This document shows positions 25,176 to 42,766 of a stretch of DNA of 64,000 bases, piece after piece. The notes under the pieces were generated by a model that saw only the letters and a list, made by a program, of their open reading frames with translations, was not told the DNA's origin and did no database searches. The stretch lies in assembly GCA_017447185.1 (NCBI GenBank), contig JAFSOC010000031.1, forward strand, positions 62,001-126,000, given 5' to 3'. The stretch is from Clostridia bacterium. Its GTDB lineage: Bacteria > Bacillota > Clostridia > Christensenellales > Aristaeellaceae. The first letter of the stretch is position 1; each line of letters opens with the position of its first letter. Both the position numbers and the translations under genes were made by a program.

Positions 25176-25730
25176 TTACCGGAATTTTCCGTGGAGGATC
25201 GGGCTCAGCGGCTTGTAGATCACAAAGGTAATGAGCGTCAGGGCCGCGCCCTTAATCAGGTTGAAGGGGATCGTGAAGGGCACGATGTATTTCCCGCCGT
25301 CCGGAAGGCCGAAGGCCGGGAAGAGGATATACAGATTCGCCAGCACCGCGGCGCCGGTCATCACCAGGGTGCCGATGGCCATGCCGATCAGGGCGGTGAT
25401 CCGGGTCTTTTTGCGGCTGTACACCAGCGCGGCCGGGGCCAGAAATGCAAACAGGGCGATGAAGTCCGCCAGCTGGCCAACCCAGCCGCCGCCCGGATGC
25501 ACCAGGAGACCCACCAGGTCCTTGATCAGAAGCGTCAGGGCGCCCGCCGGGAGGCCCATGGAGAAGCCGGCCAGCATCACGGCCAGGCCGCTGGGATCCA
25601 GCTTGTAGAAGGGCGCACCGGGCAGGATCACGATCTCGATCATGGACAGGGCGACGCCGACGGCGGCCAGGATGCCGATCCGGGTCAGGGAACCGGTGGA
25701 GAAAAGGTTGCTTTTTGCGCGTGCAGTCAT
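25176..25730 (-). CDS. ribU: Riboflavin ECF transporter, substrate-binding S component RibU
   Basis: A 184-residue membrane protein with about six helices that binds riboflavin for uptake with the shared ECF energising module, which is not encoded here. The N-terminal AAVGVALSMIEIVILPGAPFYKLDPSG is typical of RibU. The FMN riboswitch directly upstream on the same strand confirms a flavin role. The start at 25730 follows AAAGGAGGG. Riboflavin supply matters here because the window also encodes several proteins with covalent FMN motifs. Confidence 0.92.
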   Translation of the reverse strand: MTARAKSNLFSTGSLTRIGILAAVGVALSMIEIVILPGAPFYKLDPSGLAVMLAGFSMGLPAGALTLLIKDLVGLLVHPGGGWVGQLADFIALFAFLAPAALVYSRKKTRITALIGMAIGTLVMTGAAVLANLYILFPAFGLPDGGKYIVPFTIPFNLIKGAALTLITFVIYKPLSPILHGKFR

Positions 25731-25791: not shown

Positions 25792-25825
25792 GCAGCGCGC
25801 GTGTGCGCGGTATTCACTCTTTTCC

Positions 25826-25946
25826 GTTCTTCTCTCATCCAGACTTTACTGTCGGCCCCGGAATCTCACCGGATCGGCTGAGGATTTCTCGCTCAGTTCG
25901 CGGGCTTTACCGCCGGTAGGGAATTGCACCCATCCCCGAAGAAGCT
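25826..25946 (-). ncRNA. FMN riboswitch (RFN element)
   Basis: The minus strand carries the conserved RFN blocks in order: GGGGATGGGTG with ATTCCC, ACCGGCGGTAAAGCCCGCGA, ACTGAGC, the GATCCGGTGAGATTCCGG segment, GCCGACAGTAAAGTCTGG and ATGAGAGAAG. The 5' CTTCTTC and 3' GAGAGAAG close the P1 stem. It binds FMN and reduces ribU expression when flavin is plentiful. Confidence 0.96.
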
Positions 25947-25972
25947 TTAAGCAGTACGCAATGTACGGTCAC

Positions 25973-31092: not shown

Positions 31093-31830
<738 letters not shown>

Positions 31831-32385: not shown

Positions 32386-32419
32386 AAAAATTCCCGGACC
32401 CTGCGGTCCGGGAATTTTT
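32386..32419. terminator. Bidirectional terminator between korC and the flavoprotein gene
   Basis: A perfect 15-bp stem (AAAAATTCCCGGACC with its complement) around CTGC, with T-runs on both strands. It serves both converging genes. Confidence 0.9.
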
Positions 32420-32436: not shown

Positions 32437-34188
32437 TTACTTGATGTACTCGATGGCGCTCTCCGCCGCGATGCGGCCGAAGATGACGATGTCCGCCACC
32501 GCGTTGCCGCCCAGGCGGTTGCCGCCGTGGACGCCGCCGGTGACCTCACCCGCCGCGAACAGGCCGGGGATCACCTTGCCTTCGGTATTGATCACCTGCG
32601 CGGCGGTGTTGATCTTCACGCCGCCCATGGTGTGATGGATACCGGGGGCAATCTTGATGGCGTAATAGGGAGGCGTGGTCAGGTCCGCGTCCATACCGGT
32701 GGTACGTCCGAAGTCCGGATCCCGCTGGTCCTTCACATAGCCGTTCCAGTCGTTCAGTGTCTTTGCCAGGGTGGCCGGGTCGATCTTCAGGATCTCCGCC
32801 AGGCCCTCAATGGTGTCCGCCTGCACGGTGATGCCGGACTTCACATACTTCTCCGTGGCCTTCAGATGATCCCGCAGGTTCTGGTCGAAGATGATCCAGG
32901 CATACTGTCCTTCCTGCTCCAGCTCGGCGGCGGATACCGCGTCACGGGTCAGCAGCTCGTTGGTGAAACGGACGCCGCTCTGGTTCACCAGGATGGCGCC
33001 GTCGCCGCGGACGGATTCGGTGATCAGGATCGAGGTGGTCTGCTCCACGGTGGGATGCAGCTGGATCTGCTCAATATCCACCAGGGCCGCGCCCAGCTTC
33101 TGGGCCATGACGATGCCGTCGCCGGTGGCACCGGGAGCGTTGGTGGTAACCGTGCCCTTCAGGTCCGGGCGGTACTGGGTGTACATGTCCTCATTGGCGC
33201 CGAAGCCGCCGGAGGCCAGGATGACCGCCTTGCAGTTGAAGGTATAGAGGGTGTCCTTGCCTTCCGCCTTCACGCCGCAGATCTTGCCTTCCGCGTCGGT
33301 CAGCAGCTCGGTGGCCGCGGTGTCATACAGGGGCTCCACGCCCAGCTCGTTCAGCTTGGAGGAGAAGCGTTCCACCAGGTATCCGCCCACGCCGGAGCCG
33401 TCTTCGGGCGCGTGGATGCGGTTGACGGAAGCGCCGCCGGAATAGGAAATCTTCGGCAGGGCCGCATCGATGGTATCCAGCCAGTCAATGGCGTTCGCGG
33501 ATTCGTTGGCCATCATGGCCACCAGTTCCGGATCGTTCAGCGCGTGGCCGCCCTTCATGGTGTCCGCGGCAAACAGGGCCTTGGAGTCCTCGATACCCTG
33601 TTCCTTCTGGTAATGGGTTTCCGCCGCGTTCATGCCGCCGGTAGCCTTGGTGGTGTTGCCGCCGGCATAGGGCATTTTCTCCAGCAGGACGAAGTTCTTC
33701 CCCGCCTGGTGGAGCATGATGGCCGCGGTCATTCCGGCGCCGCCGGCACCGATGACGACCACTTCGGTATCCACGGTCTTTTCCGCTTTTGGCCCGTCAT
33801 TGCCGGTATCCTTCCGGTTCGCGTCCAGCACGCTGATATCCGCGCCGGCCGCTTCCAGGGCCTTTGTCGCCGCCTTGATAATGGCGTTACTGGTGACAGT
33901 GGCGCCGCTCAGGGCGTCCACGTTCGGGGTCTGGGCCAGCAGGATATCCTTGGCCAGCTGGTCCGCCGCCTTGCCGCCCAGCTCCTCGGTCTCGCCCTTG
34001 GCGTAGACCCGGACTGCCAGGATCCGGTTGGCGCTGACGGTCACCTGCACCTTGACGGGGACGAAAATGCCCTGTTCCTCCGCCGTGTAGGTGCCGGGGA
34101 CAAACAGGTCCTGCGCCGGCTGCTCCGCCAGGGCGGTGGAAGCGAAGATCATCATCATTGCGATGAACAGGCAAATCAGTTTTTTCAT
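32437..34188 (-). CDS. Exported FMN-binding/FAD fumarate-reductase-like flavoprotein
   Basis: A 583-residue protein. A signal peptide (MKKLICLFIAMMMIFASTALA) is followed by an FMN_bind domain (~25-115) with DALSGATVTS, whose Thr is the usual ApbE-type flavin attachment site. The flavocytochrome-c/fumarate-reductase domain has VVVIGAGGAGMTAAIML for FAD, RGDGAILVNQSGVRFTNE, HHTMGGVKIN and AAGEVTGGVHGGNRLGGNA. It should reduce fumarate, urocanate or a related enoate outside the membrane, taking electrons through the covalent FMN. No heme motif is present. The rnf operon lies 1.4 kb upstream on the same strand and could be the electron source. Confidence 0.9.
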   Translation of the reverse strand: MKKLICLFIAMMMIFASTALAEQPAQDLFVPGTYTAEEQGIFVPVKVQVTVSANRILAVRVYAKGETEELGGKAADQLAKDILLAQTPNVDALSGATVTSNAIIKAATKALEAAGADISVLDANRKDTGNDGPKAEKTVDTEVVVIGAGGAGMTAAIMLHQAGKNFVLLEKMPYAGGNTTKATGGMNAAETHYQKEQGIEDSKALFAADTMKGGHALNDPELVAMMANESANAIDWLDTIDAALPKISYSGGASVNRIHAPEDGSGVGGYLVERFSSKLNELGVEPLYDTAATELLTDAEGKICGVKAEGKDTLYTFNCKAVILASGGFGANEDMYTQYRPDLKGTVTTNAPGATGDGIVMAQKLGAALVDIEQIQLHPTVEQTTSILITESVRGDGAILVNQSGVRFTNELLTRDAVSAAELEQEGQYAWIIFDQNLRDHLKATEKYVKSGITVQADTIEGLAEILKIDPATLAKTLNDWNGYVKDQRDPDFGRTTGMDADLTTPPYYAIKIAPGIHHTMGGVKINTAAQVINTEGKVIPGLFAAGEVTGGVHGGNRLGGNAVADIVIFGRIAAESAIEYIK

Positions 34189-34244
34189 GGGATGCCTCCT
34201 TGTCTGTTGTTGGGGTTTCCTATTTGGTTTTTCCTTCTTTTTCC

Positions 34245-34273
34245 ATTATACCGGAAGGCTCCGGCCCGCGCAA
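34245..34273 (-). promoter_or_regulatory. Promoter of the fumarate-reductase-like gene
   Basis: On the minus strand, TTGCGC (34268-34273), 17-bp spacer, TATAAT (34245-34250). Confidence 0.65.
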
Positions 34274-34289
34274 CCTTTTCTTTTCACGC

Positions 34290-35516
34290 TTACTGCACAC
34301 TGACCGCAGTAATTGTGAAGCACTTGCCTTCTTCCTTCACCCGGATCTCCACCGTATGTTCCGCGGCCTCCGCGTCGTCGAGGACCAGTACGGGCTCGCT
34401 CTGGCCCCACTTGCCGTCCCCGCCCTTCAGCGTCTTTTTCACCGCGCCGTCCACCAGAATCTCCGCAGTTCCGAAGGCGGCGTCATTGGAGGCCTTCCAG
34501 GCCACCACGCACTTGCGGAACACGCCGGTAATCTTCAGCGGGTCACTGCCGGAGGCAGCGCTGTGGTGGAAGTTCTTCCCGCAGACCCAGCCCACCGGCT
34601 GGTTCCTGTAGGAATTGTTGTCCACCTGGTCAAAGCCGCCCCGCTCCACCGTGATGCCTTCTGCATCCCGGTCGCCGTAGACGGTTTTCAGGCCGATGAA
34701 ATCCATGCCGTATACCGGTTCCACATCCAGCTCGATGTCCTCCGGGGAGGCTTCCGCTTCGTCCGCAGCCTGCAGCAGGTGCATCACCGCGTCTGCCATC
34801 ATCAGGTGGCCGGTGGAATTGGGATGATACTCATCCTGGAAATAGCCGGATTTCGGATAGTCCTTGTCCAGGTGCGGATAAATCCCGTCCTTCATGGAAA
34901 CCATAGGCAGGTGGTAGCGTTCACCGATCTTCTGCAGTTCTGTCTGCATGTTCCAGTTCCGCTGCGCCACGGAGAACAGCAGGACCACCGCCGGTTCGTT
35001 GGGCTGGGACAGGATCTCCTTCACCATGGATTCATAGCAGCGGAATCCGGTGGCTTCCTCCCAGTCATTCACCGCGTATTCGATGAACACCAGGTCCGGC
35101 AGCCCGTCCGGATCCTCCTCCGGAATCCGCTCCAGCACATCCCGGCCGTAGCGCATGTAGCCGAAGGTGGAGGAGGTGCCGCCCACGCCGGCGTTCACCA
35201 GGCGGATGTCCCCGAAGGCGGAGGCGAACCGGACAGAAACCCGCTTCGCCCAGCATTCGTCATACCTGGACGCCAGGGCGCCTTCCGTAATGGATCCGCC
35301 CACCGTGGCCAGGGTCAGGGTTTCCCCGGCCCGGGCCCGTTCAAATACTTTCTTCAGCCGGAAATTGTTTCCCGGCGAAACCACGCATGCCTGCAGCGCT
35401 TCCGCGTACCAGGCTTCCGACCTGAAATCCGTTTTGTCTCCCATGGCTGTAACCGTTCCTCCCAGCAGCATGATTCCTGTCAGGATTGCCAAACACTTCC
35501 GTATGCTTTTTCTCAT
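34290..35516 (-). CDS. Secreted SGNH/GDSL hydrolase with C-terminal beta domain
   Basis: A 408-residue protein with an N-terminal signal peptide (~1-25). The SGNH domain has ATVGGSITEGALAS (catalytic Ser), GVGGTSSTFG, EYAVNDWE (Asn) and DEYHPNSTGH (catalytic Asp/His). Residues ~240-408 form a beta-rich domain that may bind carbohydrate. It probably deacetylates plant or wall polysaccharide outside the cell. It lies between the rnf operon terminator and the flavoprotein gene on the same strand; I see no clear promoter of its own. Confidence 0.85.
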   Translation of the reverse strand: MRKSIRKCLAILTGIMLLGGTVTAMGDKTDFRSEAWYAEALQACVVSPGNNFRLKKVFERARAGETLTLATVGGSITEGALASRYDECWAKRVSVRFASAFGDIRLVNAGVGGTSSTFGYMRYGRDVLERIPEEDPDGLPDLVFIEYAVNDWEEATGFRCYESMVKEILSQPNEPAVVLLFSVAQRNWNMQTELQKIGERYHLPMVSMKDGIYPHLDKDYPKSGYFQDEYHPNSTGHLMMADAVMHLLQAADEAEASPEDIELDVEPVYGMDFIGLKTVYGDRDAEGITVERGGFDQVDNNSYRNQPVGWVCGKNFHHSAASGSDPLKITGVFRKCVVAWKASNDAAFGTAEILVDGAVKKTLKGGDGKWGQSEPVLVLDDAEAAEHTVEIRVKEEGKCFTITAVSVQ

Positions 35517-35536
35517 GGTTTCCGGCTCTCCCGTTC

Positions 35537-35574
35537 AAAAAAGGCGGAGACTTTCTGCCTTTTCAGTCTCCGCC
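35537..35574 (-). terminator. Rho-independent terminator of the rnf operon
   Basis: On the minus strand, GGCGGAGACT pairs with AGTCTCCGCC (35565-35574 with 35543-35552), followed by six Ts (35537-35542). Confidence 0.88.
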
Positions 35575-35590
35575 TTTCCGAAATTTGATC

Positions 35591-37552
35591 TTATTTCCCC
35601 TGGGCCTTTTCCAGGATTTCCGCGACGGCTTCCTTCACGGCGCCGGCGGAGAACTTCAGCGTCGCGCCGGAGATCGCATCCGTCTCCGCGGTCTGGTTCT
35701 CCACGATGGCTTTCGCCCAGGCGTCCCGGATCGCATCCGTCAGGAAATCGGTTCCCTCGCTCTTCGCCTCGCTGCGGATCCGGCAGTCCGTAATAATGCC
35801 GTTCCGGGTGGTAACGATCACGCGGATTTTGCTGAAATCGGTTTCCTTTTCCGCCAGGTATCCGCCGTAGGCCGCGGGCTGTTTCGCGGATTCTTCTTCC
35901 TTGGGTTCCTCCGCCTTGGGCTCCTCAGCGGGCTGCTCCTCGGCGGGCTTTTCAGTTTCCGCGGGTTTCTCTTCCACAGTTTCCGCTTCTTCCGCGGGAG
36001 CGGCTTCGCCGGCCATCAGGCCCTGGATTTCCGCGAGCGCGTCCTTCACGGCGCCGGCGGAGAACTTCAGCGTGGCGCCGGAAATCGTGTCGTTGTCCGC
36101 ACTCTGGCTCTCCACGATGGCCTTCGCCCAGGCGGCCTTCACTTCATCCGTCAGGAAGTCGCTGCCCGTGCTCTTCTCCGCGGAAGTGATCTTCACATCC
36201 GTGATCTTTCCGTCCTTCACGCTGGCCAGCACCTGGATGATGCTGAAGTCCGTTTCCTTTTCGGACAGGTAGCTGCCGTAGTATGCTTCGCCTTCATCCG
36301 CGGCGGTTTCCGCTGGTTTCTCTTCCGCGGGCTTTTCCGTCTCAGCGGGCTTCTCTGTTTCCGCTGCTTCCGCGGGAGCGGCTTCGCTGCCCATCAGGCC
36401 CTGGATTTCCGCAAGCGCGTCCTTCACGGCGCCGGCGGAGAACTTCAGTGTGGCACCGGAGATCGTGTCGTTGTCCGCGCTCTGGCTCTCCACGATGGCC
36501 TTCGCCCAGGCGGCCTTCACTTCATCCGTCAGGAAGTCGCTGCCGTCGCTCTTCGCTTCGGAAGTGATCTTCACATCCGTGATCTTTCCGTCCTTCACGC
36601 TGGCCAGCACCTGGATGATGCTGAAGTCCGTTTCCTTTTCGGACAGGTAGCTGCCGTAGTATGCATCGCCGGTATCTTCAGCGGTTTCCGCGGGTTTCTC
36701 TTCCGCGGGCTTTTCTTCTGCAGGCTTTTCTTCTGCGGGTTTTTCTTCTGCGGGTTTTTCCTCTGTTGTCTCCTCCGCGGTGAAGGTCCGGTTGATTGCC
36801 TTCAGCGCCGCATTGGAAGTCACCGTGGCGCCGGAGAGGGCTTCGATCCCGTTCTCACCGAAGGTAAAGGGACCGGCCTTGCCGATGAACTGGTCCGTAA
36901 ACGCCGCCTCGGAGGCGCGCTTGCCCAGGCCGTCGGTTTCATCCGGCGTATCGATGGTCAGCGAAATGACCTTCTGGGTATCCAGGTCCGTTTCCACATG
37001 AACGGTCACCGGGCCGCCGAAGCCCTGCTCGCTGCACTGGGACGCCATCTTGACGCTTTCATCCCCGCCGGCGGGCGTTTCCGCTGCCGGGGCTTCCGTT
37101 GCCGCGGGTTTCTCTTCCGCAGGCGCCGCTTCCGCCTTTTCTGCTGCGGGCTTTTCCCCGGTGATCAGGCCGTTGAGGGCCTTCAGGGCGGCATTGGAGG
37201 TCACTGTGGCGCCGGAGATCGCTTCCACCCCGTTCTCGCCGAAGGTGAAGGGGCCTTCCTTGCCCACAAACTGGTCCGTAAACTCCTTGTCGGAGGCCCG
37301 CTTGCCCAGGCCTTCGGTCTCGTCCGGCGTATCGATGCTCAGGCTCTTCACCTTTTTGCCGTCCAGTTCCGCATGGACGGTCACGTCGCCGCCGAAGCCC
37401 TTTTCCACAGCGGTCACGGCGTTCTCATTCACGCCCAGCTGATAGGTCATGGCCTTTCCGCCGATGATGCCCGTCAGGAACAGCACCGCCACAGCCACAG
37501 CCAGCAGGCTCAGGGCGATCCGGGTCCCCTGTTTTTTCTTGAATTCGTTCAT
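35591..37552 (-). CDS. Membrane-anchored protein with five FMN_bind modules (RnfG-like)
   Basis: A 653-residue protein. One N-terminal membrane helix (~12-32) is followed by five FMN_bind modules at about 46-128, 165-258, 297-390, 425-510 and 560-650, each with an SGAT flavin-attachment motif. Modules 1 and 2 carry SGATVTSNAALKA as in RnfG. Modules 3-5 form a second subtype with SGATLKFSAGAVK. Linkers are rich in Glu, Lys, Pro and Ala. Modules 3 and 4 are nearly identical. It follows rnfB by 19 nt and is the last rnf operon gene. Up to five covalent FMNs outside the membrane suggest an electron relay beyond Rnf; that role is inferred. Confidence 0.9.
   Translation of the reverse strand: MNEFKKKQGTRIALSLLAVAVAVLFLTGIIGGKAMTYQLGVNENAVTAVEKGFGGDVTVHAELDGKKVKSLSIDTPDETEGLGKRASDKEFTDQFVGKEGPFTFGENGVEAISGATVTSNAALKALNGLITGEKPAAEKAEAAPAEEKPAATEAPAAETPAGGDESVKMASQCSEQGFGGPVTVHVETDLDTQKVISLTIDTPDETDGLGKRASEAAFTDQFIGKAGPFTFGENGIEALSGATVTSNAALKAINRTFTAEETTEEKPAEEKPAEEKPAEEKPAEEKPAETAEDTGDAYYGSYLSEKETDFSIIQVLASVKDGKITDVKITSEAKSDGSDFLTDEVKAAWAKAIVESQSADNDTISGATLKFSAGAVKDALAEIQGLMGSEAAPAEAAETEKPAETEKPAEEKPAETAADEGEAYYGSYLSEKETDFSIIQVLASVKDGKITDVKITSAEKSTGSDFLTDEVKAAWAKAIVESQSADNDTISGATLKFSAGAVKDALAEIQGLMAGEAAPAEEAETVEEKPAETEKPAEEQPAEEPKAEEPKEEESAKQPAAYGGYLAEKETDFSKIRVIVTTRNGIITDCRIRSEAKSEGTDFLTDAIRDAWAKAIVENQTAETDAISGATLKFSAGAVKEAVAEILEKAQGK
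36014..36664 (-). repeat. Two nearly identical ~275-bp direct repeats within the multi-FMN gene
   Basis: The segments at about 36014-36290 and 36392-36664 encode modules 4 and 3. They are almost identical base for base with an offset of 378 bp (126 codons). This indicates recent module duplication or gene conversion. Confidence 0.88.
36690..36763 (-). repeat. 15-bp tandem repeat coding for EEKPA
   Basis: About five units of a 15-base repeat in the linker between FMN_bind modules 2 and 3. The copy number is likely to vary between strains. Confidence 0.8.
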
Positions 37553-37571
37553 TCTCTTTCCACCTTTCGAC

Positions 37572-38363
37572 TCACACCGGGGTGGTAATGACTTTCACGG
37601 GGCACTTGGCCGCGCACTTGCCGCACAGCGTGCACTTTTCGGGATTGACCCGGGCCAGCGTTCCGTCAAACTCAATCGCATCAAATTCGCACTGCTTCGC
37701 GCACAGGCCGCAGCCGATGCAGCCGGCGGAGCAGACCTTCTTCACCTGCGGGCCCTTGTCCCGGTTGGAGCACTGCACCCGGACGATCCGGCTTTCCGGA
37801 ATCAGGGAAATCAGTCCCCGCGGGCAGGCCTTCACGCACAGGCCGCAGCTGACGCAGCGGTTCCGGTTGACGATGGCCACGCCGTTCTGCACGGAGATGG
37901 CCTGTTCCGGACACACTTCGGCGCAGCTTCCGAAGCCCAGGCAGCCGTAGTTGCAGTCCGTCACGTTGATGCCGGAGAGCACGGCCGCGCGGCAGTCCTG
38001 GATGCCGATATAGTTGCCCTGGTTCCGGGTCACATCGCAGGTGCCCTTGCAGGCGACGAAAGCGGTTTTCCGCTCCAGCGCACCGGCAGTGACACCCATG
38101 ATGTCACCGATGGCCTGCGCGGCAGCCGCTCCACCCACCGGGCAGGCATTCACGGGAGCCTCGCCTTTGGCGATAGCCCCGGCCAGCGCGTCGCAGCCCG
38201 CGTATCCGCAGGCGCCGCAGTTATTGCCGGGCAGTTTTTCACGCACGGCGACTTCCCTCTCATCGATCTTCACCGCAAACTTCTTGCCGGTGAAAACCAG
38301 GCCGATGGCCACCAGCAGCGCGATGACCGCGATCACAAGGGTCGTAATCCAGATAATATCCAT
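37572..38363 (-). CDS. rnfB: Rnf complex subunit B (Fe-S protein)
   Basis: A 263-residue subunit that accepts electrons from ferredoxin. An N-terminal membrane helix (~5-27) is followed by the Fe-S domain CGACGYAGCDALAGAI...CP. Cys-rich ferredoxin motifs follow: CAEVCP, CVSCGLCVKACP, CIGCGLCAKQC and CTLCGKCAAKCP. The length is as expected for clostridial RnfB. It lies 16 nt downstream of rnfA and directly upstream of the multi-FMN gene. Confidence 0.95.
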   Translation of the reverse strand: MDIIWITTLVIAVIALLVAIGLVFTGKKFAVKIDEREVAVREKLPGNNCGACGYAGCDALAGAIAKGEAPVNACPVGGAAAAQAIGDIMGVTAGALERKTAFVACKGTCDVTRNQGNYIGIQDCRAAVLSGINVTDCNYGCLGFGSCAEVCPEQAISVQNGVAIVNRNRCVSCGLCVKACPRGLISLIPESRIVRVQCSNRDKGPQVKKVCSAGCIGCGLCAKQCEFDAIEFDGTLARVNPEKCTLCGKCAAKCPVKVITTPV

Positions 38364-38379
38364 CCTTCGGCCCTCCTTT

Positions 38380-38958
38380 TCACAGCTGCAGGCCGCCGAA
38401 GCCCATGAAAGCGATGGACATCAGGGCGGCGGCGATCATGACGATAGGTGCTCCGCGCAGCGGGGCGGGAAGATCCTTTTCATTGATCCGGCTGCGGATG
38501 CCCGCCAGCAGGACAATGGCGATGGTGTAGCCCACAGCGGTGCCGAATCCGCTGGCCACGCACTGGGCGAAGTTGTATCCCTCCTGCACGTTGGTCAGGG
38601 CCACGCCCAGCACCGCGCAATTGGTGGTGATCAGGGGCAGGTAGATGCCCAGCGACTTATATACCGCGGGGGATTTCTTCTTCAGGAACATTTCAACGAT
38701 CTGCACCAGCGCGGCGATGACCAGGATGAAGATGATGGTCTTCATGAAGTCCATTCCCAGGGGCTTCAGGGCGAAATCATACAGCAGGCTCGCCACGGCG
38801 GACGCGATGGTGATAACGAAGATGACGGCGCCGCCCAGGCTGATGGAGGCTTTCATCTGCTTGCTGACGCCCAGGAAAGAGCAGATGCCCAGGAACTGAT
38901 TCAGCACGACGTTGTTGATCAGCGCGCCGGCGATGATAATCATGATCAGGCTCTTCAT
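38380..38958 (-). CDS. rnfA: Rnf complex subunit A
   Basis: A 192-residue membrane subunit with six helices. NNVVLNQFLGICSFLGVSK and LPLITTNCAVLGVAL are the diagnostic motifs, and their cysteines are thought to hold an intramembrane Fe-S cluster with RnfE. It takes part in ion-translocating ferredoxin:NAD+ oxidoreduction. Its start overlaps the end of rnfE by four bases, which indicates translational coupling. Confidence 0.95.
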   Translation of the reverse strand: MKSLIMIIIAGALINNVVLNQFLGICSFLGVSKQMKASISLGGAVIFVITIASAVASLLYDFALKPLGMDFMKTIIFILVIAALVQIVEMFLKKKSPAVYKSLGIYLPLITTNCAVLGVALTNVQEGYNFAQCVASGFGTAVGYTIAIVLLAGIRSRINEKDLPAPLRGAPIVMIAAALMSIAFMGFGGLQL

Positions 38959-39722
38959 TTGGCGGCCCCTCCTTCCTCAGCGGGTTTGGCTTCTTTTGTC
39001 TCAGCTTTTATCTCAGCTTTTTCCGCCTTTTCGGCTTTGGCGGCTTTCTCAGCCGGCTTCGTTTCGCAGCTCGAGGCGGTGGCACACAGGGCGCAGTTGC
39101 CGTCGCATCCGCTTTCCACCAGCTTGCGCTGCCGCGTCTTGATGCCGATGGCATTCATGATGGCAATGATCAGCGCGAAGATCAGGAAAGCTCCCGGAGG
39201 CTGGATGAAGATGGTCATCCCGAAGCCTTCCGGCAGGATCTGGGCCCCGAAAATCTTCCCGGTTCCCAGCAGTTCCCGCAGGGCGCCGGCCAGGGTCAGC
39301 GCCACGGTGAATCCCAGGCCCATGCCGATGCCGTCCATCACGGAGAGCAGCGGCGTATGCTTGTTGGCGTAGGCTTCCGCCCGACCCAGGATAATGCAGT
39401 TCACAACGATCAGGGGAATATAGATGCCCAGGTTCTTGTACAGATCCGGCAGGTAGGCCTTGATCAGCAGCTCCGTCACCGTCACGAGGCTGGCCACGAT
39501 GACGATGTAGGCAGGCAGCCGGACCTGGTCCGGAATGACTTTCCGCAGGAGGCTGATCACCAGGTTGCTCAGCACCAGGACCGCCAGGGTACTCAGGCCC
39601 ATGCCGATACCGTTGGCCGCCTGGGTAGAGACCGCCAGCGCCGGGCACATGCCCAGCATCAGCACCAGGACGGGGTTTTCCTTGATCAGGCCGTTCCAGA
39701 GGCGTTCAACATACTTTTTCAC
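38955..39722 (-). CDS. rnfE: Rnf complex subunit E with Cys-rich C-terminal extension
   Basis: A 255-residue membrane subunit homologous to RnfA. The core (~1-195) has LVLMLGMCPALAVSTQAANGIGMG and LIVVNCIILGRAEAYA. Residues after ~198 form an extension with GCDGNCALC...C (spacing C-x3-C-x2-C-x6-C), followed by a tail of Lys, Glu and Ala. The usual subunit ends near residue 200-210, so this tail is additional. It could bind a metal or Fe-S cluster on the cytoplasmic side. Confidence 0.93.
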   Translation of the reverse strand: MKKYVERLWNGLIKENPVLVLMLGMCPALAVSTQAANGIGMGLSTLAVLVLSNLVISLLRKVIPDQVRLPAYIVIVASLVTVTELLIKAYLPDLYKNLGIYIPLIVVNCIILGRAEAYANKHTPLLSVMDGIGMGLGFTVALTLAGALRELLGTGKIFGAQILPEGFGMTIFIQPPGAFLIFALIIAIMNAIGIKTRQRKLVESGCDGNCALCATASSCETKPAEKAAKAEKAEKAEIKAETKEAKPAEEGGAAK

Positions 39723-39724
39723 GG

Positions 39725-41269
39725 TCAGTTGCCTCCTTTCAGTGCCGTACGGAAGAATTCAAGTCCGGCGTTCACCGCGTCGGTCACCGCGTTGGAAGTG
39801 ACGGAAGCGCCGGAGATCGCGCTGATCTCGTTGTCCGCGGAGGCGGCGCCCTTCACCAGGGTCAGCGTTCCGCTCTTGCCGGGGAACTGGCCCTTGAATT
39901 CCGGTTCCTGTGCCTTCATGCCCAGGCCGGCGGTTTCGCTGATTTCCGTAAATGCGATATCCACGACTTCGCCTTCCGGCGTCAAGCCCAGGGCCATGAT
40001 GATGTTTCCGCCAAAGCCCTTGACGGTGATGCTCAGGGCGTAGCCCAGCACCTTGCCATCCCCGTCCTTTCCGACGTAGCAGGCGTTGATATGCGCGTTG
40101 CCCTGGTCAATGCCGTCATCCCCGAGCAGGTCCGCGGTTTCCTCCGCGTTCTTCAGGGACTTGGTGCCGGGAATCACCGAGGTGTAGGCCGCGGCAGCTT
40201 CCAGCATCGCCTGTTCCTCGATGGTGTCCTTCGTGACGAAGAAGACGCCGCTGAGGGCCAGGCCGGCGATGACCGCGATAATCGTCAGGGCGATCACGGG
40301 CTTCGGAATGCGGAAGGGCTCCCGTTTCACGCGGCGGGTCTTTCCGATCTTCCGGTAGGCCAGCGGCTTCTGGACGATGTAGGTGTCGATCAGGGGGGTG
40401 CAGACGTTGCCGATAATAATGGCGTAGCTGAAGGAGTCCGCCGTGTTGCCCCACAGGCGGAAGACGCCGCCCAGCACGCCGATCAGGCAGCCGTAGATGA
40501 ACTGGCCCAGGCGGCTCACCGGGCTGGTGACGTAATCCGTTGCCATGAAGAAGGCTCCCATCACCACGCCGCCGCCGCACAGGTGCGCCAGCAGGAAGCG
40601 GGGGTTGAAGCCTTCCCCGCCGAACAGGCCGATCAGCAGGGTGAAACCGATCAGCACGGAGAAGCAGATCTGGCCGTGGATGATATCCAGGCTCCACAGC
40701 AGCAGGCCGCCGATGAGCAGCGCCAGGATGGAGCTGCCGATAACGCCGTCCGCCGTGCCCAGGAACATCTTCGTGATGTCCACCTGCTCAAAAGCCTTCA
40801 GGGCGCCCACCGGCGTAGCTGATGCGACCGCGTCCAGCGAAGGTTTGATGGTCATGGCGTTGGCGAAGGAGATCAGCAGGAAGCACCGGGCCGCCAGCGC
40901 CGGGTTGATGAAGTTCTTGCCCAGTCCGCCGAAGCAGCCCTTGCAGACCACGATGGCGAACACGGAGCCGATCACCGGGATGTACAGGGGCGTCTTCGGC
41001 CCCAGGCTCAGGGCCAGCAGCAGGCCGGTGACCACGGCGCTGCCGTCCCAGATGGTGCTGGGCTTATGGCAGACCTTGTCGAACACCCACTCGGCAGCCA
41101 CCGCGGAAACGATCGCCAGGGCGATGATTCCGAAGGCCTGCCAGCCGTGCACAATGATACCCACCACCGTTGCCGGCAGGAGGCTCAGGACAACCATGCG
41201 CATGATATACGGGGTTGTCCACCGGTCCCTGATATGCGGGGACGAAGAGAGATTCAGCACGCCGTTCAC
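39725..41269 (-). CDS. rnfD: Rnf subunits D and G fused in one protein
   Basis: A 514-residue protein. Residues ~1-320 are RnfD: multiple helices with LDAVASATPVGALK, the site of the covalently bound FMN. A basic cytoplasmic linker (KIGKTRRVKREPFRIPK) leads to a single helix at ~335-355 and an RnfG domain to the end, with VKGFGGNIIMALGL and an FMN_bind motif reading SGASVTS. D and G are separate genes in most rnf operons. No stop codon or frameshift interrupts the join here. The start overlaps the rnfC stop by four bases (ATGA). Position of the join is estimated from homology. Confidence 0.9.
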   Translation of the reverse strand: MNGVLNLSSSPHIRDRWTTPYIMRMVVLSLLPATVVGIIVHGWQAFGIIALAIVSAVAAEWVFDKVCHKPSTIWDGSAVVTGLLLALSLGPKTPLYIPVIGSVFAIVVCKGCFGGLGKNFINPALAARCFLLISFANAMTIKPSLDAVASATPVGALKAFEQVDITKMFLGTADGVIGSSILALLIGGLLLWSLDIIHGQICFSVLIGFTLLIGLFGGEGFNPRFLLAHLCGGGVVMGAFFMATDYVTSPVSRLGQFIYGCLIGVLGGVFRLWGNTADSFSYAIIIGNVCTPLIDTYIVQKPLAYRKIGKTRRVKREPFRIPKPVIALTIIAVIAGLALSGVFFVTKDTIEEQAMLEAAAAYTSVIPGTKSLKNAEETADLLGDDGIDQGNAHINACYVGKDGDGKVLGYALSITVKGFGGNIIMALGLTPEGEVVDIAFTEISETAGLGMKAQEPEFKGQFPGKSGTLTLVKGAASADNEISAISGASVTSNAVTDAVNAGLEFFRTALKGGN

Positions 41270-42615
41270 TTCTGACCAGCTCCTTCCCGCTTTTTCTTCT
41301 CCTGGATTTCGGCTTTCGCCTGTTTAAAGGTCTGCATCAGCGGACGCTTTGCGGGGCAGGCCACCGTGCAGCTGCCGCACTGGATGCATTCCAGGCCGTA
41401 GAGTTTCTTTTCATACCGCTCCAGGTTGCCGGCAATGGCGGCGTCCGCCATCAGCTGGGGCATCAGCCCCACCGGGCACACCGTGGTGCAGCGGCCGCAG
41501 TGGAGGCAGGCGGTCATCTGTTTTTCCGCCGCCAGCACCGGATCCTCGTCCAGGAGGGTCAGGCCGTTGTTCTGCTTCTGTATCGGAACGTCCAGGCTGC
41601 CCATGGCGATGCCCATCATGGGGCCGCCGGCCAGTGCCTTGACCGCCGTCTTCCCGGGCTTCACGCCGCCGCAGGCTTCCAGCAGCTCCGCGTAGCTAGT
41701 ACCCACACGGACGAAGAAGTTGGAGGGCTCCATCACCGCCTCGCCCGTCAGGGTGAAGCACTGGCGGAAGAGAGGTTCATGATACAGAACCGCCCGCTGG
41801 ATCGCGTAAAGCGTGCCCACGTTCTGCACGATGCAGCCCACGTCCGCCGGCAGCTTGCTGATGGGGAAATCGATGCCCGTCACTGCCTGGATCAGGCTGC
41901 GCTCGCCGCCCTGCGGATACTTGGTGATCATGGTGCGGACCTTGATCCGCTGTTTCCCGGAGGCCGCGATCTCCATGGCGTGGATCGCTTCGGGCTTGTT
42001 GTCCTCGATGCAGATGATGCCCTCTGCGTTGGGGAACAGCCGGAGCACCAGCTCCAGGCCTTCCACGATGGCCGGCGCGTGGGTCCGCATCAGCTGGTCG
42101 TTGCAGGTCAGGTACGGCTCGCATTCGGCGCCGTTGGCGATCACATAGTCAATCGTTTCCGGATCCTTCGGCTTCAGCTTCACATGGGTGGGGAACCCGG
42201 CGCCGCCGAGGCCTACAATGCCCGCCTCCTGCACCCGCTGGACAATGTCATCCGTCGAGAGCTTCGTCTCGTTGTCCCGCTCCGTCCAGTCCGATACGGC
42301 CGTGAACTGTTTATCGTTGTCAATGACGATGCATTCCGTCATGCCGCCGCCCAGCACCCGGCGCTTCTCAATTGCCTTTACCTTGCCGGAGCAGCTGGAA
42401 TAGATATGCGCGGAAACGAACCCGTCCGCCTCCGCGATCTTCTGGCCCACCAGCACCTCGTCACCCTTCTGGACAACAGGCTTCGCCGGCTTGCCGATAT
42501 GCTGCTGCAGCGGAAATACCATTTCCCCCTGCGGGTCATACTGGCGTAACCGCGCCTCCCGGCTCAGGTCCTTGTGCTCTTCCGGATGAACACCGCCGTG
42601 AAAAGTGTTTCTCAC
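41266..42615 (-). CDS. rnfC: Rnf complex subunit C (NADH-binding Fe-S/flavoprotein)
   Basis: A 449-residue peripheral subunit that binds NAD(H) and FMN. The N terminus (TFHGGVHPEEHKDLS) is typical, GLGGAGFPTHVKLKPKD is the nucleotide site, and two 4Fe-4S motifs lie near the C terminus (CLHCGRCTTVCP, CIQCGSCTVACP). The start is GTG with AAGGAG upstream. It is the first gene of an operon in the order C, DG, E, A, B, multi-FMN protein. Confidence 0.94.
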   Translation of the reverse strand: MRNTFHGGVHPEEHKDLSREARLRQYDPQGEMVFPLQQHIGKPAKPVVQKGDEVLVGQKIAEADGFVSAHIYSSCSGKVKAIEKRRVLGGGMTECIVIDNDKQFTAVSDWTERDNETKLSTDDIVQRVQEAGIVGLGGAGFPTHVKLKPKDPETIDYVIANGAECEPYLTCNDQLMRTHAPAIVEGLELVLRLFPNAEGIICIEDNKPEAIHAMEIAASGKQRIKVRTMITKYPQGGERSLIQAVTGIDFPISKLPADVGCIVQNVGTLYAIQRAVLYHEPLFRQCFTLTGEAVMEPSNFFVRVGTSYAELLEACGGVKPGKTAVKALAGGPMMGIAMGSLDVPIQKQNNGLTLLDEDPVLAAEKQMTACLHCGRCTTVCPVGLMPQLMADAAIAGNLERYEKKLYGLECIQCGSCTVACPAKRPLMQTFKQAKAEIQEKKKREGAGQK

Positions 42616-42718: not shown

Positions 42719-42753
42719 CAAAAAGGCCGTGCGAAGTCTTTCTTCGCACGGCC
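42719..42753 (-). terminator. Rho-independent terminator of the mgl operon
   Basis: On the minus strand, GGCCGTGCGAAG pairs perfectly with CTTCGCACGGCC, followed by five Ts. Confidence 0.9.
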
Positions 42754-42766
42754 CGGGATCCGTTGC

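Follow-up and report, generated by a model that had tools for sequence, protein, structure and literature searches.

Where might electrons go once an Rnf complex has delivered them to the outside of a cell? The question is raised by a 64,000-nucleotide stretch of a Clostridia bacterium genome (GTDB family Aristaeellaceae; GCA_017447185.1, contig JAFSOC010000031.1, here C30, positions 62001-126000), called the window below, from an assembly of 2.91 Mb in 41 contigs that is 88.66% complete. Eight consecutive minus-strand genes encode RnfC, a fused RnfD-RnfG protein (RnfDG), RnfE, RnfA, RnfB, a protein with five flavin mononucleotide (FMN)-binding modules, a GDSL hydrolase, and a reductase of the fumarate-reductase type (Table 1). 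We think it probable that this row specifies a quinone-free form of anaerobic respiration in which electrons leave Rnf through the five-module protein (the flavin-chain protein, or chain) for the reductase as its head. A broader reading, in which an RnfDG-driven flavin chain is a quinone-free, plug-in complex whose reductases (NrfA, the fumarate type, or both) are exchanged between species, we would put at even chances.

The spacing between the eight neighbors ranges from overlaps of a few bases to gaps of about 100 base pairs (bp), and they are predicted to form a single operon, read as one transcript. The two longest minus-strand terminator-like hairpins flank the row, one beyond each end; of the remaining two on that strand, one lies inside rnfC (12-pair stem, poor T tail) and the other inside rnfB (6-pair stem). 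An earlier sequence-only reading of this DNA had ended the rnf operon at an anchored five-module protein and placed an exported reductase 1.4 kb further on. Both proteins are where it put them, but the operon appears to run on past the chain, and the supposed gap is filled by the GDSL gene, for which release of the substrate of the reductase might be a candidate role. GDSL/SGNH hydrolase genes were also found near rnf in six other genomes (G004, G011, G014, G019, G034, and G064; G numbers denote genomes and L numbers loci).

RnfA, B, C, D, E, and G are all encoded in the window, so that the gene set for the complex is complete. RnfD and RnfG, previously taken as separate proteins, are one 514-residue open frame, with RnfD at about residues 1-305 and RnfG at about 306-514. 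The RnfD part matches the solved RnfD of 7zc6 and 9eri (expectation value, E, 3.3e-63 each), and the RnfG part matches the RnfG of the same structures, its residues 326-513, membrane helix included, aligning with 7zc6_G at 1e-24. Against TIGR01947 the RnfG part scores 85.8 bits, below the cut-off of 102, yet it spans positions 2-186 of 187. Its FMN site reads SGAS, as had been stated. The corresponding site of the RnfD part, DAVASATP instead of SGAT, lines up with DGVTTATP in solved RnfD, and neither its Thr nor its Pro varies across 12 aligned sequences (the window and 11 others). Given these motif residues, covalent attachment of FMN to both parts is predicted. The "up to eight" FMN motifs counted earlier are reached as seven [ST]GA[ST] motifs plus this divergent RnfD site.

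The fusion is not confined to the window genome. In a set of 61 genomes (its own and 60 relatives; 37 belong to the genus, the window included), the RnfDG query found some match in 51 and a near full-length match in one frame in 24, namely 23 of the 37 and G045. A single frame was also present in G064 and G066, which were reached via their reductase genes. Among the best 80 loci of a wider scan of genome contigs, D and G share one frame in 31 and stand apart in 47, the remaining two (L106 and L130) being cut; one fusion belongs to Eubacterium ruminantium ATCC 17233 (L118; RnfD 8-312, FMN_bind 474-562). Other departures from the usual arrangement were seen among the Rnf loci: a second, divergent rnf-like set (RnfA, E, D, and C) on the opposite strand, adjoining an RnfDG-NrfA operon (L092:5-4816), an RnfE within a 534-residue frame that is possibly a further subunit fusion (L124:11548-13152), and, at a separate place in four genomes of the genus (G017, G018, G025, and G031), an rnfCDEAB row that lacks rnfG.

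The chain protein consists of a hydrophobic N-terminal membrane anchor (recognized by eye) and five FMN_bind modules joined by linkers of E/K/P/A repeats. In a genome-wide Pfam search the modules scored 49.9, 43.7, 25.8, 25.5, and 23 bits, all above the cut-off of 22, and chance motifs were therefore rejected as their source. All five carry SGAT. Modules 1 and 2 are RnfG-like and modules 3 to 5 belong to a divergent second sub-type; module 2 weakly matches the solved CbFMN4 domain 1 (8p2b, E 0.0035) and module 4 a solved FMN-binding domain (8p2a, E 0.002). A 378-bp tandem repeat with 94% matches (window 35979-36715) covers modules 3 and 4, which are a recent tandem duplication. With several FMN_bind domains bearing the acceptor motif, an N-terminal anchor, and an ApbE in the genome, the chain has the attributes of a multi-flavinylated protein.

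Could the chain simply be this species' own multi-flavinylated RnfG, as described in 2021? RNF clusters of that kind are already published, an RnfG-type multi-FMN protein adjoins ApbE in some genomes of the genus, and the RnfG model NF045876 gives the chain 105.5 bits over two stretches, against 74.4 for the fused RnfG (cut-off 205). However, an RnfG with its own helix is already fused to RnfD, the chain matches solved RnfG in the FMN part alone (E 0.0017-0.0023), and its anchor resembles that of Rnf-linked NrfA rather than the helix region of its own RnfG. We judge this explanation very improbable; because RnfG is fused to RnfD, the chain would be a separate, extra subunit and not RnfG itself.

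The attachment of flavin to such proteins depends on ApbE. As noted earlier, none is encoded in the window; a search of the genome for apbE, set beforehand as a test of the idea, returned one, the sole PF02424 match (C10:418255-419076, 279.1 bits), on a different contig. The genome's nine FMN_bind matches are divided between the rnf gene row and this C10 locus, where the gene adjoining apbE encodes a second candidate reductase, a fumarate-reductase-like protein with two FMN_bind modules (L011:10148-12646). In other genomes of the genus, an ApbE of a different type, 29-31% identical to that of the window genome, adjoins a multi-FMN RnfG-like gene (L066, L068, L071, L073, L078, L079, and L080).

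The reductase at the end of the row scores 585.7 bits against NF005064 (cut-off 542) and 534.9 against another flavocytochrome c model (cut-off 285.45), and flavocytochrome c fumarate reductases head the list of its PDB matches (4e-128). It carries an SGAT motif and, as judged by eye, a signal peptide. In the alignment with these the letters H, T, E, R, R, H, and R occupy the fumarate-reductase active-site positions, which we take, in numbering and roles, to be H365, T377, E378, R381, R402, H504, and R544. All seven are kept in 14 of 14 full-length open reading frames (ORFs) for reductases of this type (13 distinct records; L055 is cut). The protein thus combines FMN_bind, FAD_binding_2 (a flavin adenine dinucleotide domain), apparent export, and active-site residues in the manner of flavinylated fumarate-reductase-like enzymes. 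Fumarate is the likeliest substrate, and related ones such as urocanate remain candidates. This type of reductase was found in 23 of 45 genomes searched (E <= 4.6e-245); its gene lies within 15 kb of rnf or chain genes in 10 of them, and a further 6 have it on the contig in question but 27-30 kb away.

The position after rnfB, here called the slot, was compared among relatives. It is visible in 25 same-genus loci (the window, L042, L044, L045, L047-L063, L065, L067, L165, and L167, the last two added on account of their reductase genes; L043 and L046 are cut before it); the other genus genomes among the 45 either lack an RnfDG match, carry the type with RnfD on its own, or lay outside the RnfDG search. 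A multi-FMN chain gene directly follows rnfB in 19 of the 25, in keeping with the gene order that the earlier reading led one to look for; of the three outcomes named there as refuting the idea, two (a genome lacking ApbE, and relatives whose multi-module gene never lies near rnf) were thus not observed. Counted with one profile, the modules of same-slot proteins number 3 to 7 across 18 relatives (the L049 protein is truncated at a contig end), with 2 to 6 exact [ST]GA[ST] motifs; where the exact motif is missing the acceptor Thr is retained, a partial module of L058 being the one exception. NrfA forms part of the chain protein in 15 of the 19, in an N-terminal, internal, or C-terminal position, and PF02335 was found in 7 of 9 Pfam-scanned slot or RnfG-type proteins; the window genome has no PF02335 match. 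Outside the genus, NrfA stands alone in the slot in G045 and in 14 of the best 80 contig-scan loci, of which 11 continue with ResB and CcmC-like genes (the latter named by eye), two with ResB and then the contig end, and L098 with neither.

The NrfA domain of the relatives aligns with NrfA structures and has the marks of a nitrite reductase: five heme motifs, of which heme 1 is CxxCK, and the catalytic R, Y, and H. Of 39 ORFs, 36 retain every one of the active-site letters R/K/Y/H/Q, presumably equivalent to E. coli R106, K126, Y216, H264, and Q263; of the other three, two are cut by contig ends and one (G006) differs at R106. L044 and L082, counted separately among the 39, are the same record.

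Chain, reductase, and NrfA also occur fused to one another. In G030 a 1219-residue ORF right after rnfB comprises FMN modules, a window-type reductase (78% identity), and NrfA. In G064 the rnf genes are followed by a four-module chain and, after 35 bp, a 974-residue ORF that joins reductase (80%) and NrfA, with ResB, CcmC-like, and GDSL genes downstream; in G004 the reductase gene lies 44 bp beyond the chain. The G030 contig, at 6.6 kb, is by itself insufficient against chimeric assembly, but given the 3.26-Mb contig of G064, the 44-bp spacing in G004, and the 173-kb contig of the window, such an origin of the reductase-chain link is unlikely. Five- and seven-stretch FMN_bind proteins were also seen directly upstream of rnfC in RnfDG-type operons (L103:6300-8630 and L109:5395-8613) of metagenome-assembled genomes named Oscillospiraceae and Lachnospiraceae; an "Frd" identity of these two was rejected, Pfam giving multiple FMN_bind and no FAD domain.

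These loci bear on another explanation, general extracellular electron transfer, in which Rnf electrons would travel along the chain through the cell wall to outside acceptors such as iron or humics and the reductase would be a mere neighbor. Multi-flavinylated proteins have been proposed for longer-distance transfer (PMC8238504), and module numbers from 3 to 7, with a fresh copy of modules 3/4 in the window, are like those of a length-tuned wire. Nonetheless, the G030 and G064 fusions and the 15 slot proteins with NrfA inside argue for dedicated heads rather than an open-ended wire, and Pfam gave no match to a wall-binding domain in the chain protein. We regard this explanation as unlikely. 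What the sequence-only reading had proposed, extracytosolic electron transfer fed by Rnf, is well supported by the gene row, the ApbE, and the conserved slot, with the difference that dedicated terminal reductases, not external acceptors generally, appear to be the destination.

Flavin-based extracellular electron transfer of the Listeria type is linked to demethylmenaquinone, and no set of quinone-biosynthesis genes of that kind was detected in the window genome, which has neither a MenD nor an MqnA/D match at E 0.001 (at the completeness given above). MenD was above cut-off in none of the 61 genomes, with a model that matched 14 of 14 control genomes and was above cut-off in 7; MqnA/D was found in 0 of 37 genomes of the genus and above cut-off in 3 of 24 elsewhere. 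The familiar partners of NrfA were missing as well: NapC/NrfH and NrfD had matches in 0 of 61 genomes each. NrfA and ResB co-occur in an identical 21 of the 61, and neither is in the window genome. A 2025 review (PMC12285233), in the sections available, names only quinol-linked partners for NrfA.

The reductase might instead be fed by some other outward route, with the multi-FMN protein acting to buffer redox state or to modulate Rnf. The window genome encodes two membrane iron-sulfur proteins of the NapH-like kind (L174:2053-3699 and L175:3227-4072; contigs C4 and C29) that could provide such a route, which counts against our proposal; NapH-like systems are tied to flavinylated enzymes elsewhere (PMC8238504), and in some relatives the reductase and rnf are not neighbors. 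Set against this, no FMN_bind match lies near the NapH-like genes, one of the two proteins carries a fused thioredoxin-like domain (recognized by eye) that suggests a different job, the genome has no Ferric_reduct (MsrQ-like) match, and in the window reductase and rnf share one gene row. On this evidence we hold a separate route to be quite unlikely.

How the window lineage came to have a chain without NrfA can be approached through a tree built from concatenated Rnf subunits by a quick method (45 rows, midpoint root, support by Shimodaira-Hasegawa-like approximate likelihood ratio test, SH-aLRT). All FMN chains fall in one starred 19-row clade, in which one row (G019) has no chain; slot proteins without NrfA (window, G011, and G004) occupy three separate places among FMN-NrfA rows, and in the nearest outgroups the slot is filled by NrfA alone. 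The pattern favors loss of NrfA in the window species, gain and loss being distinguished solely through the outgroups with NrfA in the slot. Anchor comparisons fit this: in comparisons with NrfA-only proteins the window chain anchor reaches 85 for G010, 95 for G006, and 58 for G045, and 13 of 17 such proteins exceed the maximum of 46 in a background of 300 other ORFs chosen without hydrophobicity matching. Lower values were obtained for second-type NrfAs (20-29), for the RnfG-type protein of G032 (23), and for the window's own RnfG helix region (34). The simplest reading would be that an anchored, Rnf-linked NrfA came first, that FMN modules were gained once, and that NrfA, ResB, and CcmC were then lost in the window lineage, leaving chain and reductase in place.

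In the respiratory chain that we propose, reduced ferredoxin (via RnfB) or NADH (reduced nicotinamide adenine dinucleotide, via RnfC) would donate electrons to Rnf, which would pass them, coupled to ion pumping, to FMNs covalently bound by RnfDG on the outer side of the membrane. From RnfG a branch would lead to the five covalent FMNs of the anchored chain, then into the exported reductase by way of its FMN_bind domain and FAD, and most likely to fumarate; the FMNs would be attached by the ApbE encoded elsewhere. In sister species the same chain protein would serve the fused pentaheme nitrite reductase NrfA. The passage of Rnf electrons to an extracytosolic FMN domain has been described (PMC8238504; preprint PMC10979944). 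We infer the branch to the chain from gene order, the fusions, and the missing quinone genes.

A number of observations weigh against this proposal. Covalent flavin, the path and direction of electrons, ion coupling, and fumarate as substrate are all predictions from sequence. Hairpins over both strands total 15, against 11.6 +- 4.0 in shuffles, and promoter-like sites in the region number 2, against 2.1 expected; because neither count is above chance, the operon call leans mainly on spacing and order. Among the 25 visible slots, four (G003, G019, G023, and G024) have neither FMN chain nor NrfA, and two (G006 and G010) have NrfA with no FMN. In the G006 NrfA (L061:6985-8979) a W is aligned at the catalytic Arg R106, by a real change or an alignment slip. 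A second-type NrfA (46% identity) with ResB and CcmC-like genes stands away from rnf in G009, G013, and G023 (L162, L163, and L164), the first of which has no RnfDG match at all, so that NrfA can persist without this Rnf. The anchors of four of the 17 NrfA-only proteins (L088, L089, L095, and L100) are at or below background. Of the 23 reductase genomes, 4 have the reductase on another contig and 3 have no known RnfDG locus, one of these (G063) not having been searched for it. Sub-cut-off matches to the MenD model occur in 25 of 61 genomes, including 9 of the 37 genus members, and the strongest, in G020, is a full-length MenD-like protein (163.6 bits, cut-off 244.2). The window genome and those of its relatives are, moreover, incomplete.

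Table 1. Features of the window (positions in the window; aa, amino acids)
Feature	Position	Strand	Evidence or detail
rnfC, first operon gene	41266..42615	-	Pfam RnfC_N, Complex1_51K, SLBB, 4Fe-4S
rnfDG fusion	39725..41269	-	Pfam RnfD aa 7-302, FMN_bind aa 418-504
rnfE	38955..39722	-	Pfam Rnf-Nqr 6.9e-68
rnfA	38380..38958	-	Pfam Rnf-Nqr 4.6e-58
rnfB, ferredoxin-like iron-sulfur subunit	37572..38363	-	Pfam FeS, Fer4
Flavin-chain ("wire") protein, 653 aa	35591..37552	-	Pfam FMN_bind x5
FMN_bind module 1, RnfG-like sub-type, EAISGATV	37157..37432	-	aa 41-132
FMN_bind module 2, RnfG-like sub-type, EALSGATV	36776..37057	-	aa 166-259
FMN_bind module 3, second sub-type, DTISGATLKF	36398..36694	-	aa 287-385
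FMN_bind module 4, second sub-type	36020..36316	-	aa 413-511
FMN_bind module 5, second sub-type	35606..35905	-	aa 550-649
GDSL/SGNH hydrolase, exported by eye	34290..35516	-	Pfam Lipase_GDSL_2 3.2e-15
FMN_bind + FAD_binding_2 reductase, fumarate-reductase type, exported by eye	32437..34188	-	Pfam, NCBIfam NF005064
Terminator-like hairpin directly 3' of reductase gene, likely operon end	32386..32419	-	15-pair stem, T run
Terminator-like hairpin upstream of rnfC, likely end of preceding gene	42724..42754	-	13-pair stem, T run
FMN riboswitch	25823..25947	-	113 bits
Riboflavin-transporter-like gene, ECF (energy-coupling factor)-type, by eye, downstream of FMN riboswitch	25176..25730	-	

A ferredoxin-reducing enzyme and a riboflavin transporter had also been placed in the window, and both are present: the ferredoxin oxidoreductase was recognized in 2 of its 3 ORFs, those Pfam-scanned (ORF 31093-31830 was left out), and the transporter by eye.

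The functions of multi-flavinylated proteins have been called unclear (PMC8238504, PMC11334425; these and the other papers cited are represented by their available sections), and a 2024 mSystems paper describes them as functionally uncharacterized; two multi-FMN proteins have been produced with ApbE (PMC10339131, 2023). The loci described here tie such proteins to definite partners, namely fused heads of the NrfA and fumarate-reductase types next to an Rnf, in genomes that yielded neither NrfH/NrfD nor above-cut-off quinone synthesis; the wire idea thereby becomes directly testable. If the broader, plug-in reading is true, NrfA would have a new, non-quinol electron partner and a quinone-independent route, and ferredoxin- or NADH-driven nitrite ammonification and fumarate respiration would occur in gut Clostridia without quinone. 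The relatives are mostly known from ruminant-gut metagenomes, where these bacteria may be unrecognized sinks for reductant and nitrite; such sinks may limit methane formation (PMC6776011).

The general idea of Rnf working with multi-flavin proteins is already known, since Meheust et al. (2021, eLife, PMC8238504) described multi-flavinylated RnfG in RNF clusters, in some Christensenellales together with a multi-heme domain, and proposed a second electron path as a side branch to extracytosolic acceptors; the sequence-only reading had missed this precedent. The main text of that paper, in its available sections, does not mention "nrf" or "fusion", and its two "nitrite" passages concern NapH-like systems; the accessible part of a 2025 Rnf/Nqr review (PMC12174285) likewise has no mention of "fused", "fusion", or "nitrite". 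A literature search that also took in multi-flavinylated proteins and respiratory reductases of the gut, with supplements and subscription papers outside its scope, returned no report of an Rnf-NrfA link, an RnfD-RnfG fusion, or the reductase fusions. What appears to be new within that literature is RnfDG, the chain as an extra subunit, the recognition of the heme domain as NrfA, and the fusions that involve the reductase.

Among the closest known systems, the multi-flavinylated RnfG clusters share with these loci an Rnf complex and a multi-FMN_bind protein, some with multi-heme parts. In contrast to those clusters, RnfG is here fused to RnfD with the chain as an extra subunit, the multi-heme part of the relatives is an NrfA with active-site residues, and the gene row also includes a reductase, which in relatives is joined in one polypeptide with chain or NrfA. 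The flavinylated fumarate-reductase-like enzymes Listeria FrdA and Shewanella UrdA (PMC8238504) have the same PF00890 plus FMN_bind architecture, SGAT motif, flavocytochrome c family membership, signal peptide (by eye here), and fumarate-reductase residues, whereas the window reductase gene stands in an rnf gene row. MmcA-Rnf of Methanosarcina acetivorans (PMC11024163) is similar in having a multi-cofactor extracytosolic carrier in the rnf operon that diverts Rnf electrons, but MmcA is an archaeal heptaheme cytochrome feeding methanophenazine or outside acceptors, and the available text mentions no flavin chain or fused reductase. Finally, the sister species have in common with NrfHA, NrfABCD, and CymA systems (PMC12285233) the NrfA catalytic domain and ResB and CcmC-like neighbors; unlike those quinol-linked systems, and with no NrfH/NapC or NrfD match, they carry NrfA fused to FMN_bind next to rnfB.

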